A stretch of DNA of 35,174 bases from an uncultured Candidatus Melainabacteria bacterium (lineage in GTDB: Bacteria; Cyanobacteriota; Vampirovibrionia; Gastranaerophilales; Gastranaerophilaceae), in the NCBI GenBank assembly GCA_949398305.1, contig CASLVD010000013.1:1-35174 (forward strand), in the 5' to 3' direction. Below the pieces are notes generated by a model, which worked only from the letters and a program-made list of their open reading frames with translations, was not told the origin of the DNA and did not search any database. Both the position numbers and the translations under genes were made by a program. Below are positions 7,291 through 31,251 of this stretch, piece by piece (the first letter of the stretch is position 1; the number at the start of each line of letters is the position of its first letter).

Positions 7291-8607
7291 TTAGTCTGAC
7301 CAGTTGAAATTTTGGTTTACTAGTGTGACATTTGTCCAACCTTGTTGAGATAGTGCTGCTTTCATTTTGTTTGATAAGTCTTCCATTGCTCTTTGATGTG
7401 TTAATGACATACCTGTTTCAACTGTATATGTTTTACCATCAGGTGTTTTTACTGTAGCTGTACCATTGTTTCCTCTCATTGTGTGGATTGAGAAATTGAT
7501 TGTTAATTTTCTTGGTTTAGCTTTTTCAGCGGCAGTCCATTGAGTTCCTTGAGCTCCTTGAGCTCCTTGGGATTTTTGTGCTCCTTGAGATTTTTGAGTA
7601 TTTTGAGTTTGACCGCCTTTTGAGAATTTGAAGTTTTGGTTGGTTAGAGTTACATTTGTCCAACCTGCTTTTTTCAATTGAGCCATTATGTCATCAGCTA
7701 ATGCGTTCATTGCCCTATTGTGTGTTAATGAAGCTCCTGTTGAAGCTGTGTATCTTGTACCATCAGGCATTGTAACTGTTGCAGTACCACTGTTTGTTGT
7801 ATTTGAGTGAATTGAGAATGATATGTTAACTTTTACCGGTTTAGTTTTATCGATATTGTTTTTGTTACCAGCTCCTTGAGTACCATCGGCTTTGTTGCTT
7901 CCGCCGGCTTTACTGCTTCCGCCGGATCTTCTTGTTCCGCTGTTATCTTTAACTTTGCCGTTATCGTCTTTGACTTTACCGGTATTGTCATCTTTAACCT
8001 TACCGGTATCATCATCTTTAACTTTGCCGGTATCATCATCTTTGACTTTACCGCCTTTGTTATTATCATTGTTCTCAACTTTTTCTTTTTCCTCAGACTT
8101 AGCCTTCGATAAGGCTTCGCACATATCTTCGTAGCTCAAGCCTTTACCAATTAAATGTCCTTCTTTATCAGTTGCTGAATATTTATCATTACCATCTGAT
8201 ACTATGTTATGGTTTGGATAAAGAGTTTTTAAGTTAGCTAGTTTATCTTGGTTTCCAGGTAATTGTTGTGGTTGAGCTTGTTGAGCGTTTATCATACCAA
8301 ATGGATTAAAACTGCCCATTCCGCCGCCAAAGAGGTTACTGAACAAGCCGCCAAACAGACCGCCGCCCATTCCCATACCCATCATTCCGCCACCGCCAAA
8401 TAGGCCGCCGAATAATCCTGACATGAATCCCCAGAATCCTGTAGGTCCATTATTAATGGTTACATTCGTATTCTGTGGTGCACAATGACAGTGACCGCCA
8501 AACATTATTGGTTGTCTCGCTTGCCTGATATTCATCCCTCGATTAGGTACATAGGTGTTTTGTGCATATCGTAGATTAAATGCTTTGCCTGCTCCGTAGA
8601 TGCCCAT
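7291..8607 (-). CDS. multi-repeat protein with duplicated C-terminal domain, unknown function
   Basis: 438 residues without a signal peptide. Residues 33-38 (PIMFGG) carry an F-x-G motif, followed by HCHC. Residues ~58-105 are Gly/Phe/Met-rich (LFGGLFGGGG). Residues ~125-165 form a small globular segment (YPNHNIVSDGNDKYSATDKEG). Residues ~186-223 are a charged repeat, KVKDDDTG and variants, about five units. Residues ~259-333 and ~363-438 are two copies of one domain, marked by FSIH, GTATV, PDG-x-x-Y-T, SLTH-x-RAM and GWTNVTL-x-NQNF. A KSQGAQ-rich linker joins the copies. The composition suggests a surface, adhesive or matrix protein, but the function is unknown. A terminator follows the stop, and the start has AGAGGACAGAGAT upstream. 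Confidence 0.85.
   Translation of the reverse strand: MGIYGAGKAFNLRYAQNTYVPNRGMNIRQARQPIMFGGHCHCAPQNTNVTINNGPTGFWGFMSGLFGGLFGGGGMMGMGMGGGLFGGLFSNLFGGGMGSFNPFGMINAQQAQPQQLPGNQDKLANLKTLYPNHNIVSDGNDKYSATDKEGHLIGKGLSYEDMCEALSKAKSEEKEKVENNDNNKGGKVKDDDTGKVKDDDTGKVKDDNTGKVKDDNGKVKDNSGTRRSGGSSKAGGSNKADGTQGAGNKNNIDKTKPVKVNISFSIHSNTTNSGTATVTMPDGTRYTASTGASLTHNRAMNALADDIMAQLKKAGWTNVTLTNQNFKFSKGGQTQNTQKSQGAQKSQGAQGAQGTQWTAAEKAKPRKLTINFSIHTMRGNNGTATVKTPDGKTYTVETGMSLTHQRAMEDLSNKMKAALSQQGWTNVTLVNQNFNWSD
7941..8053 (-). repeat. degenerate 24-bp coding tandem repeat
   Basis: About four to five copies of a 24-base unit encoding KVKDDDTG, KVKDDNTG and KVKDDNG variants inside the 7291-8607 gene. Such repeats can gain or lose units by slippage, which would change the length of the linker without breaking the frame. 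Confidence 0.8.
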
Positions 8608-8715
8608 ATCTCTGTCCTCTTATTTTTGTTATCTTATATATATTAAGTATATACTTTGTGTATAATTTCAGGAATATGGGATTTTTGTTACAAAAGTTTA
8701 CATAGACAGCGGTGT

Positions 8716-20604: not shown

Positions 20605-21702
20605 CTATACTGCAAATCTGAAATGAACTAAATCGCCGTCCTGGATTACATAATCCTTTCCTTCAAGACGTGTAACCCCTTTTTCCTTGCAGGCATTGTA
20701 AGATCCAAGCTCTGCAAAGTCTTTATATGGTGTGATTTCTGCCCTGATAAATCCTTTTTCAAAGTCTGTATGGATTACGCCGGCAGCCTGGGGAGCTTTT
20801 GTTCCTGCTGTAATAGTCCAGGCATGGACCTCTTTTTCTCCAGCTGTAATAAATGTTCTTAGTTTTAGAAGATTGTAAACAGATTTTATCATTCTGTTGA
20901 TTCCTGAATCCTCAATACCAAGCTCTTGTAAGTATTCTTCCGCTTCTTCTTTACCAAGTTCTGCTAATTCTTCTTCAATTTTTGCTGTAATTACAACCAT
21001 TTCTGCACCGTGAGATTTCGCGTATTCTGCAACTTTTTTGGTGTATGCGTTTCCGTCTTTCAAATCAAATTCTGAAACGTTAGCACAATAAATAACAGGT
21101 TTAGTTGATAGAAGATTTAACATTTTTACCACCTGAATTTCATCGTCTTCAAAGTGTTTTGAAATATCAATAAATGTACATTCTGATAATAGTTCAACTA
21201 ATTTTTTCAAAACTTTGTCTTCCAAAACAGCGTCTTTATCACCTGATTTAACGGTTTTAGCGATTCTTGCCTGACGTCTTTCAACTGATGCCATATCAGC
21301 AAGTGCAAGTTCAGTGTTAATTGTTTCAATATCACTAATCGGATCAACTTTACCTTCAACGTGAATTGTATTTTCATCGTCAAAACATCTTACAACCTGA
21401 ATAATAGCATCAACTTCTCTGATGTTTTGCAAAAATTGGTTTCCTAAGCCTTCGCCCTTGCTTGCACCTTTTACAAGCCCTGCAATATCAACAAATTCAA
21501 TTGCTGTAGGGATAATTGTCTGTGCTTTACAAAGTTTAGATAATATTTCAAGTCTTTCATCCGGTACTTCTACGACACCAATATTCGGTTCGATAGTACA
21601 AAACGGGTAATTTGCGCTTTGAGCATTTCGTGCGTTTGTTAAAGCATTAAATAATGTTGATTTACCGACATTTGGCAGTCCTACTATTCCTGTTCTAAGC
21701 AT
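20605..21702 (-). CDS. ychF: ribosome-binding ATPase YchF (Obg family)
   Basis: 365 residues, standard length. G1 is GLPNVGKST (8-16), followed by NYPFCTIEPNIGVVEVPDERL and the switch region DIAGLVKGASKGEGLGNQFL. The variant nucleotide motif that favours ATP over GTP is expected in this family (CANVSEFD at the G4 position). A C-terminal TGS domain ends HFRFAV, as in other members. It binds ribosomes and is linked to stress responses. AAAGGAAA lies just upstream of the ATG. With obgE, it is the second Obg-family P-loop protein in the window. Confidence 0.97.
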   Translation of the reverse strand: MLRTGIVGLPNVGKSTLFNALTNARNAQSANYPFCTIEPNIGVVEVPDERLEILSKLCKAQTIIPTAIEFVDIAGLVKGASKGEGLGNQFLQNIREVDAIIQVVRCFDDENTIHVEGKVDPISDIETINTELALADMASVERRQARIAKTVKSGDKDAVLEDKVLKKLVELLSECTFIDISKHFEDDEIQVVKMLNLLSTKPVIYCANVSEFDLKDGNAYTKKVAEYAKSHGAEMVVITAKIEEELAELGKEEAEEYLQELGIEDSGINRMIKSVYNLLKLRTFITAGEKEVHAWTITAGTKAPQAAGVIHTDFEKGFIRAEITPYKDFAELGSYNACKEKGVTRLEGKDYVIQDGDLVHFRFAV

Positions 21703-21827
21703 TTATATTTCCTTTTTATAGTGTAATTTCATTTACCCCTATTTTACCCCAAACCCATTGTAATAAATAGCATTTTGAGCCATTGTAAACAAATGTAACG
21801 AATATATACTTTTTCGATAAATTTTAG

Positions 21828-21858
21828 GCAATTTTTCAATCTGTAAATACTTTATATA
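21828..21858 (+). promoter_or_regulatory. shared promoter element, copy A
   Basis: GCAATT (21828-21833), 19 bases, TATATA (21853-21858) inside AAATACTTTATATA, followed by TGTAAGGG. An extra upstream stretch from TGTAACGAATATATAC is nearly identical in copy B. It lies 40 bases before the ATG of the 21899 gene. Confidence 0.7.
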
Positions 21859-21898: not shown

Positions 21899-22192
21899 AT
21901 GACAAATATTTATGGAGAAATGATTACAGTAAAAGAATATGCAGAAACTTTAAGATATAATCCGGCAGATGAATCTTCTATGATTAGAGTTGAAGATTAT
22001 GTTGCATCTATCAGAACTCAATCAGTTCAAGCTCAAACTTCAGAATTCATCACAGTTAAAGATTACGTTCAAGCATTAAATAACGAAAGATACTTAACAC
22101 CCGCAGAACAAGAATTAGCTTCAAGAATTGAAAAATCAGTTTCTTCAAAAGCAAATAAAGCAGCACAAGAATTAGAACAATTATTAGCATAA
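21899..22192 (+). CDS. small protein with three ITVKEY-type repeats
   Basis: 97 residues from the ATG at 21899, with ACGGGG 8 bases upstream; an in-frame TTG six bases earlier is less likely. Three copies of one motif are visible: MITVKEYAETL (residues ~8-18), MIRVEDYVASI (~29-39) and FITVKDYVQAL (~52-62). The last repeat is followed by YLTPAEQELASRIEKSV and a helical end KANKAAQELEQLLA. The repeats match the single motif in the 23655 and 24249 proteins, so this is a new small-protein family in multi-repeat form. No signal peptide, no cysteines. Function unknown. Promoter copy A drives it and a terminator follows. Confidence 0.85.
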   Translation: MTNIYGEMITVKEYAETLRYNPADESSMIRVEDYVASIRTQSVQAQTSEFITVKDYVQALNNERYLTPAEQELASRIEKSVSSKANKAAQELEQLLA

Positions 22193-22219
22193 TCATCTCT
22201 CTTTAATATAAATTTTACG

Positions 22220-22240
22220 AGCCGGTTTTACCGGCTTTTT
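22220..22240 (+). terminator. rho-independent terminator of the 21899 gene
   Basis: AGCCGGT-TTT-ACCGGCT, a 7-bp stem followed by TTTTTCTT. Confidence 0.88.
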
Positions 22241-22300
22241 TCTTATCTTGCCATGCTTAATCAATAGTAGTAGTATGAGAAATATAAGAAGGAGAAAATT

Positions 22301-23518
22301 ATGAAAAACACTGGTAAATTCACAAAACGGGGGGGGGGTAATTGCTTAAGGGTAAATATATTCTCCCGATTATTCCTAAACTTTCTCAATGGTTGTCAAA
22401 AAAATGATGTCATCCTGAACTTTACAAGGCGAACAAGGAATAAATGTAAAAGAGCTTTCACCTTAACTGAAATATTGCTAGCAGTGGCAATAGTAGGAAT
22501 AATTTCATCAATAATACTTCCTGCTGCAATAAGTAAGTTTAATGAAAAAGTATTAGATTTGGGTTATGAACGTGAAATAAAAACGATAAAGAGTTCAGTA
22601 GACAGCTTAGTCGTGAGTGAGAATAAAAAGGATTTCTTTTCAACAATGATGTACACAGATGTTGAACCGGAGTCTTATGAAGATACTTCAGGCAAGTTTT
22701 TAAAGAAATATTTAAGGGTAGCTAAATATTGCGGTGATACAAACGGAGATTGTTTTGCGTCAAAATATTATGATTATTCAGATAACGGGAAAAAGGAGTT
22801 TCTACCGACTTATAAGGGCAGCTGTGCCCGCTTAAAAAATGGAATGAGTATTTGTATAACCCCTCAAATCGGCGCAAGAAGTATAGAAGGAATTATTGAT
22901 ATAAATGGTCAGAAAGGGCCAAATGTATTGGATCGAGATTTGCGCAGTTTTATAATAAATGCCAAAACACGAACCGGCAGAGTGAGTGATTCAACCGAAG
23001 TATTGGCACATAACGGTTATATAGAATTGGGCGGAGGAGACACCCCTCCAAATTCTCCGGAAGATCCGCCGGAACCACCAAAGTCAGCCTGCGAAATAGA
23101 TCAAAATAGTTTGGATTGCTGTAGAATAAGAGCTATCAGTGATCCTGCAGATGCTTGTTGTAACTATGAAGAGATAAAAAACGGAAATGCTAGTTGTCAT
23201 CAAGTTGTAGATATTGCATTAAATTGTACTCCCGGAAGTTGGAGTGGCCGTGATGGTAACTATACTAGAGTTATATCGTGTACTACTTCAATAAATCCTT
23301 ATGTTGCAGGTTTTCAAACGAGTAATGGCGCTAAGAAATTTAACATAGGAGAAAAATTTAATTTTAGTCAATCTTGTTATAAAATGCAAAATTGTCCAAA
23401 CTCGACGAGTTATAAACTTTGGTTCAGCGGAAATCAATTTTTTGAACAGATTGTAAAAGAAACTCAATGGAACAATTTTCATGTGAAGTATAATATTACG
23501 ACTAAACGGTTATTATAA
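22301..23518 (+). CDS. pilin-like protein with long repeat-derived leader and G10 tract
   Basis: 405 residues. AAGGAG lies 7 bases before the ATG. The prepilin motif KRAFTLTEILLAVAIVGIIS begins only at residue ~50 (Ala at -1, Glu at +5), so the leader is unusually long. Codons 10-13 span ten consecutive Gs. Codons ~14-48 match pieces of the dispersed repeat (GGGTAAATATA; TGTCATCCTGAACTT), which suggests an insertion between the native first ~10 codons and the prepilin motif. The C-terminal half has a Pro-rich linker (GGGDTPPNSPEDPPEPP) and a Cys-rich domain (ACEIDQNSLDCCRIR, ACCNYEE). The gene is open as sequenced; loss or gain of one G would break it. Known family role: pilus or pseudopilus subunit. 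Confidence 0.8.
   Translation: MKNTGKFTKRGGGNCLRVNIFSRLFLNFLNGCQKNDVILNFTRRTRNKCKRAFTLTEILLAVAIVGIISSIILPAAISKFNEKVLDLGYEREIKTIKSSVDSLVVSENKKDFFSTMMYTDVEPESYEDTSGKFLKKYLRVAKYCGDTNGDCFASKYYDYSDNGKKEFLPTYKGSCARLKNGMSICITPQIGARSIEGIIDINGQKGPNVLDRDLRSFIINAKTRTGRVSDSTEVLAHNGYIELGGGDTPPNSPEDPPEPPKSACEIDQNSLDCCRIRAISDPADACCNYEEIKNGNASCHQVVDIALNCTPGSWSGRDGNYTRVISCTTSINPYVAGFQTSNGAKKFNIGEKFNFSQSCYKMQNCPNSTSYKLWFSGNQFFEQIVKETQWNNFHVKYNITTKRLL
22329..22338 (+). repeat. homopolymeric G10 tract inside a coding region
   Basis: Ten consecutive G residues, 28 bases into the coding sequence of the 22301 gene, in an AT-rich genome. This is the classic form of a slipped-strand contingency tract. Confidence 0.9.
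22350..22422. repeat. dispersed repeat remnant inside the pilin-like gene
   Basis: GGGTAAATATA at 22350-22360 and TGTCATCCTGAACTT at 22408-22422 occur in the same order as in the 13602-13795 element. The middle is diverged or shortened. Confidence 0.5.
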
Positions 23519-23578
23519 GTATCATAATATTAGTTGTAACGAAATGTAACGAATATATACTTTTTCGATAAAAATTAG

Positions 23579-23609
23579 GCAATTTTTAAATCTAAAAATA
23601 CTTTATATA
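23579..23609 (+). promoter_or_regulatory. shared promoter element, copy B
   Basis: GCAATT (23579-23584), 19 bases, TATATA (23604-23609) inside AAATACTTTATATA, followed by TGTAAGGG. The upstream part (TGTAACGAATATATAC, TTTTTCGATAAA) is almost identical to copy A. It lies 45 bases before the ATG of the 23655 gene. Confidence 0.7.
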
Positions 23610-23654
23610 AATGTAAGGGAAACGATATTAAGAGAATTCAAAGGGGATAAAATT

Positions 23655-23825
23655 ATGAGAAATGATTATGAAATGATTACAGTTGCAGATTATGTTAACA
23701 CAGTAGAAAATGTAAAATGTTTATCTGTTGAAGAAAAAGAAATTCAAGCACAAGTTGAAAGATATTTATTAAACCAAAAAAGATATGAAACTAACGCAAA
23801 AATCGTTGAAGCTCTATTAGCTTAA
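23655..23825 (+). CDS. 56-residue ITV-motif small protein
   Basis: Starts MRNDYEMITVADYVNTVENV and ends ETNAKIVEALLA. AAGGGG lies 9 bases before the ATG. MITVADYV matches the repeats of the 21899 protein, and the spacing to LSVEEKEIQAQVERYLL matches that of the 24249 protein. The C-terminal tail TNAKIVEALL also ends the ribbon-helix-helix protein and the 24249 protein. No membrane segment or signal peptide. Function unknown; the even spacing and charged helices suggest a small two-helix adaptor or dimer, which is inference. It has its own promoter copy (B) and a terminator. Confidence 0.87.
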   Translation: MRNDYEMITVADYVNTVENVKCLSVEEKEIQAQVERYLLNQKRYETNAKIVEALLA

Positions 23826-23852
23826 TTATAAAAAATATGTTAAACATTTTTT

Positions 23853-23882
23853 AAGAACCGATATAATTTATCGGTTCTTTTT
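23853..23882 (+). terminator. rho-independent terminator of the 23655 gene
   Basis: AAGAACCGATA-TAATT-TATCGGTTCTT, an 11-bp perfect stem, followed by TTT. Confidence 0.88.
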
Positions 23883-23961
23883 GTGCTTAAAACCCAATGA
23901 TAGTAACGATTTTAAATTGTAACGATATATTACAAATATATACTTTTTAACTCAAAATTAC

Positions 23962-23992
23962 GCAATTTTTGCAAATAAAAATACTTTATATA
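23962..23992 (+). promoter_or_regulatory. shared promoter element, copy C
   Basis: GCAATT (23962-23967), 19 bases, TATATA (23987-23992) in AAATACTTTATATA, followed by GAGTAAGGGG. The upstream region again has TGTAACGA and AATATATACTTTTT. It lies 42 bases before the ATG of the ribbon-helix-helix gene. Confidence 0.7.
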
Positions 23993-24034
23993 TGAGTAAG
24001 GGGATTACAATCAGGAAAAATTAAAGGAGAAAAA

Positions 24035-24223
24035 ATGGCTAGAGTATTAATTTCAATGCCCGAAAAATTTTTAGATGAGATTGATTCAGTTGCGGATTCT
24101 GAAAATCGTACACGTTCTGAATTGATTCGTGAAGCATTAAGAACTTATATGTATAGAAGTCAGCTTAGAAATGGTAAAAAAGCAACAACAAATGCAGAAA
24201 TTCTTGAAGCACTGCTTGGTTAA
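24035..24223 (+). CDS. ribbon-helix-helix (CopG/NikR-type) DNA-binding protein
   Basis: 62 residues. Beta strand ARVLISMPEKFLDEID, then helix A and the turn SENRTRSELIREALRTYM: the CopG-type ribbon-helix-helix fold, with the usual R-S-x-L-I-R-x-A in helix B. These proteins bind DNA as dimers, with the paired strand in the major groove. The C-terminal tail KATTNAEILEALLG is not part of the fold; it matches the tail of its downstream neighbour and of the 23655 protein. AAAGGAG lies 5 bases before the ATG. It is probably co-transcribed with the 24249 gene (25-base gap). It may regulate the promoter set that drives it; this is inference. Confidence 0.9.
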   Translation: MARVLISMPEKFLDEIDSVADSENRTRSELIREALRTYMYRSQLRNGKKATTNAEILEALLG

Positions 24224-24248
24224 TTAAAATTTGAAACGGATGGGGAAA

Positions 24249-24428
24249 ATGGCAAAGAATAATTATCAAATGATTACAGTAAAAGAGTATGTAAATATGT
24301 TGGACAATGAAGTAACATATTTGGATACTGATGCAAAAGAATTAAAAGCAAGTGTTGAAAAGTATCTTATAAAGGTACGTAGAGCGCAGACTAATGCCAA
24401 AATCTTAGAAAGTTTACTTGGTTATTAG
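24249..24428 (+). CDS. 59-residue ITVKEYV small protein
   Basis: Start placed at the ATG at 24249 (TGGGGAAA directly upstream), giving MAKNNYQMITVKEYVNMLDN; a TTG-started longer form is possible but less likely. The motif MITVKEYV, then YLDTDAKELKASVEKYLI, then TNAKILESLLGY repeats the plan of the 23655 protein in the same order and spacing. It is the second gene of an operon with the ribbon-helix-helix protein, and the two share the C-terminal tail. Function unknown. Confidence 0.85.
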   Translation: MAKNNYQMITVKEYVNMLDNEVTYLDTDAKELKASVEKYLIKVRRAQTNAKILESLLGY

Positions 24429-24557: not shown

Positions 24558-25766
24558 CTATTCGATGATAGAGTCAACAACACCAGCACCAACAGTTCTA
24601 CCGCCTTCACGGATAGCAAATCTCATACCTTGTTCGATAGCTACAGGAGCGATAAGTTCAACTTCCATAACAACGTTATCACCAGGCATTACCATTTGAC
24701 CTTCAAATTTGATTGAACCGGTTACGTCAGTTGTTCTGATGTAGAACTGAGGTCTGTAACCAGGGAAGAATGGAGTGTGACGTCCACCTTCATCTTTTGT
24801 CAATACGTAAACGTTTGCTGTGAATTTAGTGTGTGGGTGAATTGAACCAGGTTTAGCAAGAACTTGACCACGTTCAATTTCAGTTTTATCAACACCACGA
24901 AGTAAAGCACCGATATTATCACCTGCTTGACCTTGGTCAAGAGATTTTCTGAACATTTCAACACCGGTTACTGTAGTTTTTTTAGTTTCACCTAAACCAA
25001 CTAATTCAACTTCGTCACCAACTTTAACAACACCACGTTCAACACGACCGGTAGCAACTGTACCACGACCAGTGATTGAGAATACGTCTTCAACCGGCAT
25101 CAAGAATGGTTTATCTAATTCTCTAACAGGTTCTGGGAAGTATGAATCCAAAGCATCCATAAGTTCCCAAATTTTATCTGTCCATTGGTTGTCGCCTCTA
25201 GCAACTGAAGGGTTAGCTTGAACTGCTTCTAAAGCTTTTAAAGCTGAACCGTGGATGAATGGGATATTGTCGCCATCGAATTCGTAAGAAGAAAGAAGTT
25301 CTCTAACTTCCATTTCTACTAATTCTAATAATTCAGGGTCATCAACCATATCGCATTTGTTTAAGAATACAACAAGGTTAGGAACACCAACTTGGCGAGC
25401 AAGCAAAATGTGTTCACGAGTCTGAGGCATAGCACCGTCAGTAGCTGCAACTACAAGAATTGCACCGTCCATTTGAGCAGCACCTGTGATCATGTTTTTA
25501 ACATAGTCAGCGTGGCCCGGGCAGTCAACGTGAGCATAGTGTCTTGAATCTGTTTCGTATTCAACGTGAGCAGTAGAGATGGTAATACCTCTTGCTTTTT
25601 CTTCTGGAGCAGCATCGATTTCATCGAATTTTTTAGCATCTGCTTTACCAGCTGCTGCTAATGTACCGGTAATTGCTGCTGTTAATGTAGTTTTACCGTG
25701 GTCAACGTGGCCGATTGTACCTACGTTAACGTGCGGTTTCGTACGTTCATACTTTTCACGTGCCAT
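24558..25766 (-). CDS. tuf: translation elongation factor Tu
   Basis: 402 residues, slightly longer than the E. coli form (~394). G1 is GHVDHGKT (19-26), switch I is RGITIST, G3 is [12 protein letters not shown], and G4 is NKCD. Domains II and III continue to [15 protein letters not shown]. It delivers aminoacyl-tRNA to the ribosome. The gene has its own strong promoter (25833-25860) and an AAGGAG upstream of the ATG. It stands alone: rpsL, rpsG and fusA are not adjacent, so it is not in a classical str operon here. Confidence 0.99.
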
Positions 25767-31191: not shown

Positions 31192-31220
31192 AATTTCCCC
31201 GTTCTATTTTCCCCTATATT

Positions 31221-31251
31221 TATATAAAGTATTTTTGAACTGAAAAATTGC
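31221..31251 (-). promoter_or_regulatory. shared promoter element, copy F
   Basis: On the minus strand GCAATT, 19 bases, TATATA in AAATACTTTATATA, followed by TATAGGGG. It lies 29 bases before the CHAP gene start. Confidence 0.7.

Follow-up and report, generated by a model that had tools for sequence, protein, structure and literature searches.

The window analysed here is a stretch of 35,174 nucleotides, which is the entire contig C13 of a 1.92 Mb genome in 109 contigs. A GTPase gene (20605-21702) and tuf (24558-25766), both on the minus strand, flank a plus-strand series made up, in order, of a tandem ITV gene, a prepilin-like gene, ITV-A, a gene for a ribbon-helix-helix (RHH) protein, and ITV-B. 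The RHH protein (24035..24223, +, 62 aa) is a CopG-like regulator (RHH_1, 1.7e-8) with the C-terminal tail TNAEILEALLG. Its companion ITV-B (24249..24428, +, 59 aa) follows in the same transcription unit after a gap of 25 nt. ITV-A (23655..23825, +, 56 aa) consists of a single motif, a helix B-like segment and the tail NAKIVEALLA. The tandem ITV protein (21899..22192, +, 97 aa) contains the motif copies MITVKEYA, MIRVEDYV and FITVKDYV, encoded at 21920-21943, 21980-22003 and 22046-22069. More than one motif match is found in none of 200,000 shuffles of this protein, and three motif-like units are discernible in nearly all of its orthologues. The preliminary description, in which proteins of 97, 56 and 59 aa share MITV[KA][ED]Y[VA] beside an RHH protein and the longest has three tandem copies, is thus borne out, and the open reading frames are real.

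L034, the closest relative, has the genes for the tandem protein, the RHH protein and ITV-B together, with no prepilin gene in the gap. The dN/dS values against this relative are about 0.12 for ITV-B, 0.22 for the tandem gene and 0.06 for the RHH gene. All three genes are under purifying selection. Translation of the ITV genes is supported by these values together with the homologues in most genomes of the genus. For ITV-A, dS is low against three relatives (0.34-0.47), where the dS of ITV-B is above 0.8. This suggests strong codon constraint or high expression. The prepilin-like gene (22301-23518, +; N_methyl, 4.5e-5, above the cut-off) has a tract of 10 G at 22329-22338, 28 bases past the ATG and ahead of the prepilin leader. 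It is the sole G/C run of at least 8 within the window and a candidate phase-variation switch, at present in frame. The sole RNA element found in the window is a tRNA.

Core promoters are located at 21828..21858 ahead of the tandem gene (GCAATTTTT-N14-TTTATATA), at 23579..23609 ahead of ITV-A and at 23962..23992 ahead of the RHH/ITV-B unit, all on the plus strand and of one class-wide type. The earlier statement that each unit has the same promoter therefore holds for the three transcription units (97 aa, 56 aa and RHH) but not for the 59-aa gene, which begins 25 nt past the RHH stop codon and lacks a separate promoter. The core promoter GCAATTTTT-N14-TTTATAWA occurs throughout the class with 4-16 strict sites per genome, compared with 0-1 for the reversed control. 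We rejected it as the RHH target: it is just as frequent in g35, a genus in whose genomes no RHH match was found, and thus represents a general promoter class. It often precedes small lineage-specific genes, and an additional site is present in the window near 31211-31251.

Upstream of the core promoter, the three units have in common the repeat TGTAA(A/C)nn(A/T)ATRTWAC(A/G)AATATATAC. These operator-like elements match the pattern on the plus strand at 21784..21809 before the tandem gene (TGTAAACAAATGTAACGAATATATAC, 0 mismatches), at 23535..23560 ahead of ITV-A (TGTAACGAAATGTAACGAATATATAC) and at 23918..23943 ahead of the RHH/ITV-B unit (TGTAACGATATATTACAAATATATAC). In the whole genome the repeat is perfect only at these cluster sites; apart from them there is one site with 1 mismatch, and there are two with 3 mismatches. 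Genomes elsewhere in the genus have related elements ahead of their tandem, ITV-A and RHH genes. Because of its position, the TGTAAC repeat is likely the operator of the RHH protein. The site with 1 mismatch (L197, G000:C58, 4075-4100) lies before a 60-aa open reading frame (MVEKSEQNLEVIETT...) that is followed by a 170-aa gene and one resembling prmC.

The RHH protein passes the curated cut-off of PF01402 (34.5 bits against 20.5). ITV-A, ITV-B and the tandem protein have no RHH family match above the curated cut-off, and their assignment to any known family was rejected, with only sub-threshold matches in Pfam, NCBIfam, PHROGs, PADLOC and PDB sequences. The view that they belong to no described family is in agreement with these searches. 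We found no open PMC paper on Gastranaerophilales regulation that names the RHH protein or the small proteins. The RHH protein itself is found in 358 of 382 class genomes at E<=1e-6 and is nearly invariant over residues 1-42; many genomes have it without a companion, absence being called from MAGs. A second RHH paralogue (L058 735-923, G000:C24) has the same tail (LQNANLLESLLS) and a similar promoter in front, and genomes of the family contain up to about three to four paralogues of this type.

Relatives of ITV-B are present in 33 of 59 nearby genomes, every one in the same genus. A companion profile which includes relatives from other genera matches 132 of the 382 class genomes at E<=1e-3, all of the same family, a few of these matches being weak or stemming from a membrane protein. 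Strong companion matches fall in about 13 genera (g1, g18-g28, g45) of one Gastranaerophilales family. Other genomic matches such as C96 (E 0.35) are noise. In the profile searches, ITV proteins are not limited to this locus but are present in almost all genomes of the genus. A lineage-specific, RHH-linked family expanded by duplication of genes and repeats had been proposed. That it is undescribed, has expanded and is linked to the RHH protein stands, and the proposal was incomplete in three respects: relatives occur beyond the genus as the RHH companion in about 13 genera, the family is related to the adjacent RHH protein through a common helix B and tail, and the motif also lies within a large membrane protein.

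In the RHH neighbourhoods taken from other genera, the gene after RHH is nearly always a companion of 46-98 aa, and the motif is written YxMSSxDEYFxxLDKE outside the window's genus. The companion in the window's genus has the form YQMITVKEYVNMLDNE...ELKASVEKYLIKVRRAQTNAKILESLLG. The SS-type companion of g18, g20, g21 and others reads YIMSSLDEYFEILDKEN-KRRSELVAKSLVKYLQ, and its tails differ. In g22 the companion starts with YATTTLEEYLALPEDNSN, continues with a complete RHH domain (VVLALPAKAINELQTVKYSKNRSELVSKTLKKYL) and ends with the tail QAQTNAKIVEALLS. An additional SS-type companion is located 5' of the RHH gene in genus g19 (L152, -210 to -46) besides the downstream one. Alignment of profiles (hhalign) relates the RHH protein to the g22 companion over the whole domain plus tail (2.2e-12), to the SS-type over helices A-B (1.6e-5; ungapped to RHH residues 13-43) and to the genus ITV-B across helix B and tail (2.8e-8). 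ITV-B in turn aligns with the SS-type (1.7e-10) and, in full length, with the g22 companion (2.5e-13). In shuffle controls of the RHH-core profile, 0 of 480 for g22 and 0 of 1080 for the SS-type score as high. For the ITV proteins of the window's genus, this profile minus the tail scores no higher than shuffles, and the tail contributes most to their resemblance to the RHH protein. Their kinship is inferred through the intermediates, g22 and SS-type. As judged from these alignments, the companion lineage overall is RHH-related. In the AlphaFold monomer ITV-B forms a single long helix, modelled less confidently at the N-terminus, and shows neither an RHH fold nor a strand; the models cover monomers, and that of ITV-B gives no sign of dimer formation. 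Structure prediction of the single and tandem forms, which had been suggested earlier, thus yields one long helix for ITV-B and a poor tandem model with a mean pLDDT of 65.

The peptide YxM-S/T-S/T-x-x-E-Y/F-x-x-x-L/I-D, which we refer to as the docking peptide (YQMITVKEYVNMLDNE, ENYLLSSLDEYLSILDTE), takes the local form ITVKEYV. In several genera the companion profile also matches open reading frames of 600-790 aa, which encode a membrane protein of about 700 aa. This protein is composed of a signal peptide, an AMIN-like ectodomain (AMIN, PF11741: 14.5 bits, 0.04, under the cut-off of 20.5), a hydrophobic segment and a long C-terminal tail, and its gene adjoins that of a solute-binding protein. 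From the sequence, the peptide-bearing tail is predicted to be cytoplasmic. The window genome encodes its copy at G000:C77:3852-6035, carrying ENYLLSSLDEYLSILDTEE. The docking peptide is found in 31 of the 33 membrane-protein sequences compared, and the companion profile scores it with a median of 18.0 bits, above the shuffle maximum of 8.6. Its residues Y, E and D are invariant in an alignment of 13 membrane-protein sequences. There it is internal, lying in a variable linker that contains no RHH domain. When a DNA pattern of the peptide was run on three genomes of the genus (G000, G205, G022), the membrane protein and ITV-B were the only places where it was conserved. Strong membrane-protein matches fall in the same genera as the companions. 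This co-occurrence at the genus level follows one clade, partly through how the profile was built, and may reflect phylogeny alone.

A hint as to what the peptide binds comes from genomes lacking a strong match to the full-length RHH protein and/or to an adjoining companion. Each of the 10 membrane proteins of these genomes keeps a recognisable peptide, the weakest being that of G101 (3.1 bits). Something other than the companions thus seems to maintain the peptide, and its receptor is probably a third protein. Outside the genus, 20 of the 22 companion loci examined have a HEAT-like gene directly 5' of RHH. In the window genome this gene has moved from RHH and is located at L197 (G000:C58) 7959-8672, beside a class-wide promoter; its product matches HEAT_2 at 8.6e-4, below the cut-off. 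From gene order alone, the HEAT-like protein is a candidate receptor for the docking peptide.

The cluster RHH is a member of the CopG/Arc-type RHH proteins (RHH_1, PF01402), the companions have its helix B and tail, and those of g22 contain a complete RHH domain. The companions of the window's genus, however, fall below every RHH model, have no clear strand and carry an N-terminal docking peptide that is not described for RHH proteins. A second comparison is provided by CdrS and CdrL, haloarchaeal RHH regulators of cell division encoded by adjacent genes, one short and widely conserved, the other lineage-specific and binding upstream of the gene for the short one (PMC7439475). The window locus also pairs a conserved short RHH protein with a lineage-specific neighbour, and the RHH protein matches the NCBIfam model of the cell-cycle regulator aCcr1 at 4.8e-7 (29.6 bits, below the cut-off of 60). 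CdrL, however, is an RHH protein with a zinc ribbon, whereas the companions are 53-98 aa long, bear a docking peptide and also come in tandem versions. The ftsZ linkage of CdrS/CdrL is not found at this locus, where the neighbours are tuf, the GTPase gene and, in other genera, the HEAT-like gene. The best PDB sequence match of the window RHH is EndoAI (4me7), a MazE-type antitoxin with an RHH N-terminal domain; unlike EndoAI, the window RHH has no MazF partner, a different C-terminus and a near-universal chromosomal gene. The membrane protein resembles AMIN-domain envelope proteins (PF11741) in its ectodomain, below the cut-off, and adds to them a transmembrane segment and a long, presumably cytoplasmic tail in which both the peptide and a conserved C-terminal domain lie. 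Eukaryotic microProteins and Id proteins are small relatives of transcription factors which retain the contact region minus the DNA-binding part. With the companions this is an analogy only, the docking peptide having no counterpart there.

Based on these data, we tentatively propose that the ITV proteins are autoregulated co-regulators which connect the RHH regulator with a receptor on which the membrane protein docks as well, a reading we consider possible at somewhat less than an even chance. The basis of the model is the relatedness, the common peptide, the common operator-like element, the conserved gene order and the purifying selection. The ITV proteins would be derived from the adjacent RHH transcription factor, or would have swapped parts with it. 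In each, an N-terminal docking peptide would be fused to a helix B-like segment and, within this genus, to the C-terminal tail of the RHH protein. The RHH protein would bind the TGTAAC repeats 5' of the three transcription units, so that the set would be autoregulated. The companions, which seem to be without a clear DNA-binding strand of their own, would contact the RHH protein or its partners via the common helix and tail. Their docking peptide would bind a cytosolic receptor that also takes the same peptide in the cytoplasmic tail of the membrane protein. As membrane protein and companion compete, a signal from the envelope would be passed on to the RHH regulon; the tandem form with its three copies would be a high-avidity version.

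The main rival to this co-regulator model is that the companions are complete small RHH proteins, with the ITV motif as degenerate RHH strand and helix A. They would bind DNA themselves, either as homodimers or in heterodimers formed with the RHH protein, and the tandem form would repeat the strand-helix A module. The ungapped alignment of SS-type companions with RHH residues 13-43 (helices A and B), the full RHH domain inside the g22 companions and the likeness by eye of ISMPEKFLDEID to ITVKEYVNMLD speak for it. Yet the same peptide lies in the variable linker of the membrane protein without an RHH domain, in g22 it precedes a separate, complete RHH domain, and the ITV-B monomer model has no strand. 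We therefore regard this reading as rather unlikely, though a serious one. The small proteins could also be independent structural proteins encoded beside RHH, with a tail likeness that arose by local gene conversion and no functional coupling. That many genomes have the RHH protein without companions and that the SS-type tails differ would fit. This is quite unlikely in view of the RHH adjacency retained in about 13 genera, the operator-like repeat common to the units and the complete RHH domain of the g22 companions.

A peptide that is short and conserved among otherwise unrelated proteins, in companions with a hydrophobic Leu/Ala C-terminus, might instead be a degradation tag or protease-adaptor signal which destabilises the companions and the membrane protein, with the ALLA/ALLG end of the tail as part of the signal. 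This is improbable: in the membrane protein the peptide is internal with invariant Y, E and D, and the tail also occurs in the RHH protein, where the peptide is absent. Finally, the cluster might be the remnant of a toxin-antitoxin module, with the RHH protein as a MazE/VapB-like antitoxin and the small proteins as toxins or extra antitoxins. Such an origin would account for EndoAI as the closest solved relative by sequence (2.4e-7) and for small genes in an autoregulated-looking cluster. It is highly improbable, since MazF/PemK is absent from 24 of the 25 genus genomes searched and PemK from the window genome, so that a MazF partner for the RHH protein was rejected for all but one of the genus genomes covered. 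Furthermore, there is no PADLOC match, no toxin open reading frame or toxin-like domain was found in the cluster, and a near-invariant RHH protein in 358 of 382 class genomes is unlike a mobile module.

In its fullest form, the co-regulator model describes a membrane-to-gene circuit. A trimmed RHH relative bearing the docking peptide of an envelope transmembrane protein would rival that protein for one receptor, for which the HEAT-like neighbour is a candidate, and one-copy and three-copy co-factors would set the strength. As a whole this extended picture is doubtful. If true, it would be a bacterial membrane-to-gene circuit of a new kind, in which a near-universal, near-invariant RHH protein would be linked to fast-evolving companions and a membrane protein by a defined peptide of 10-15 residues. 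It would also be a rare bacterial example of small regulators that originate from a transcription factor.
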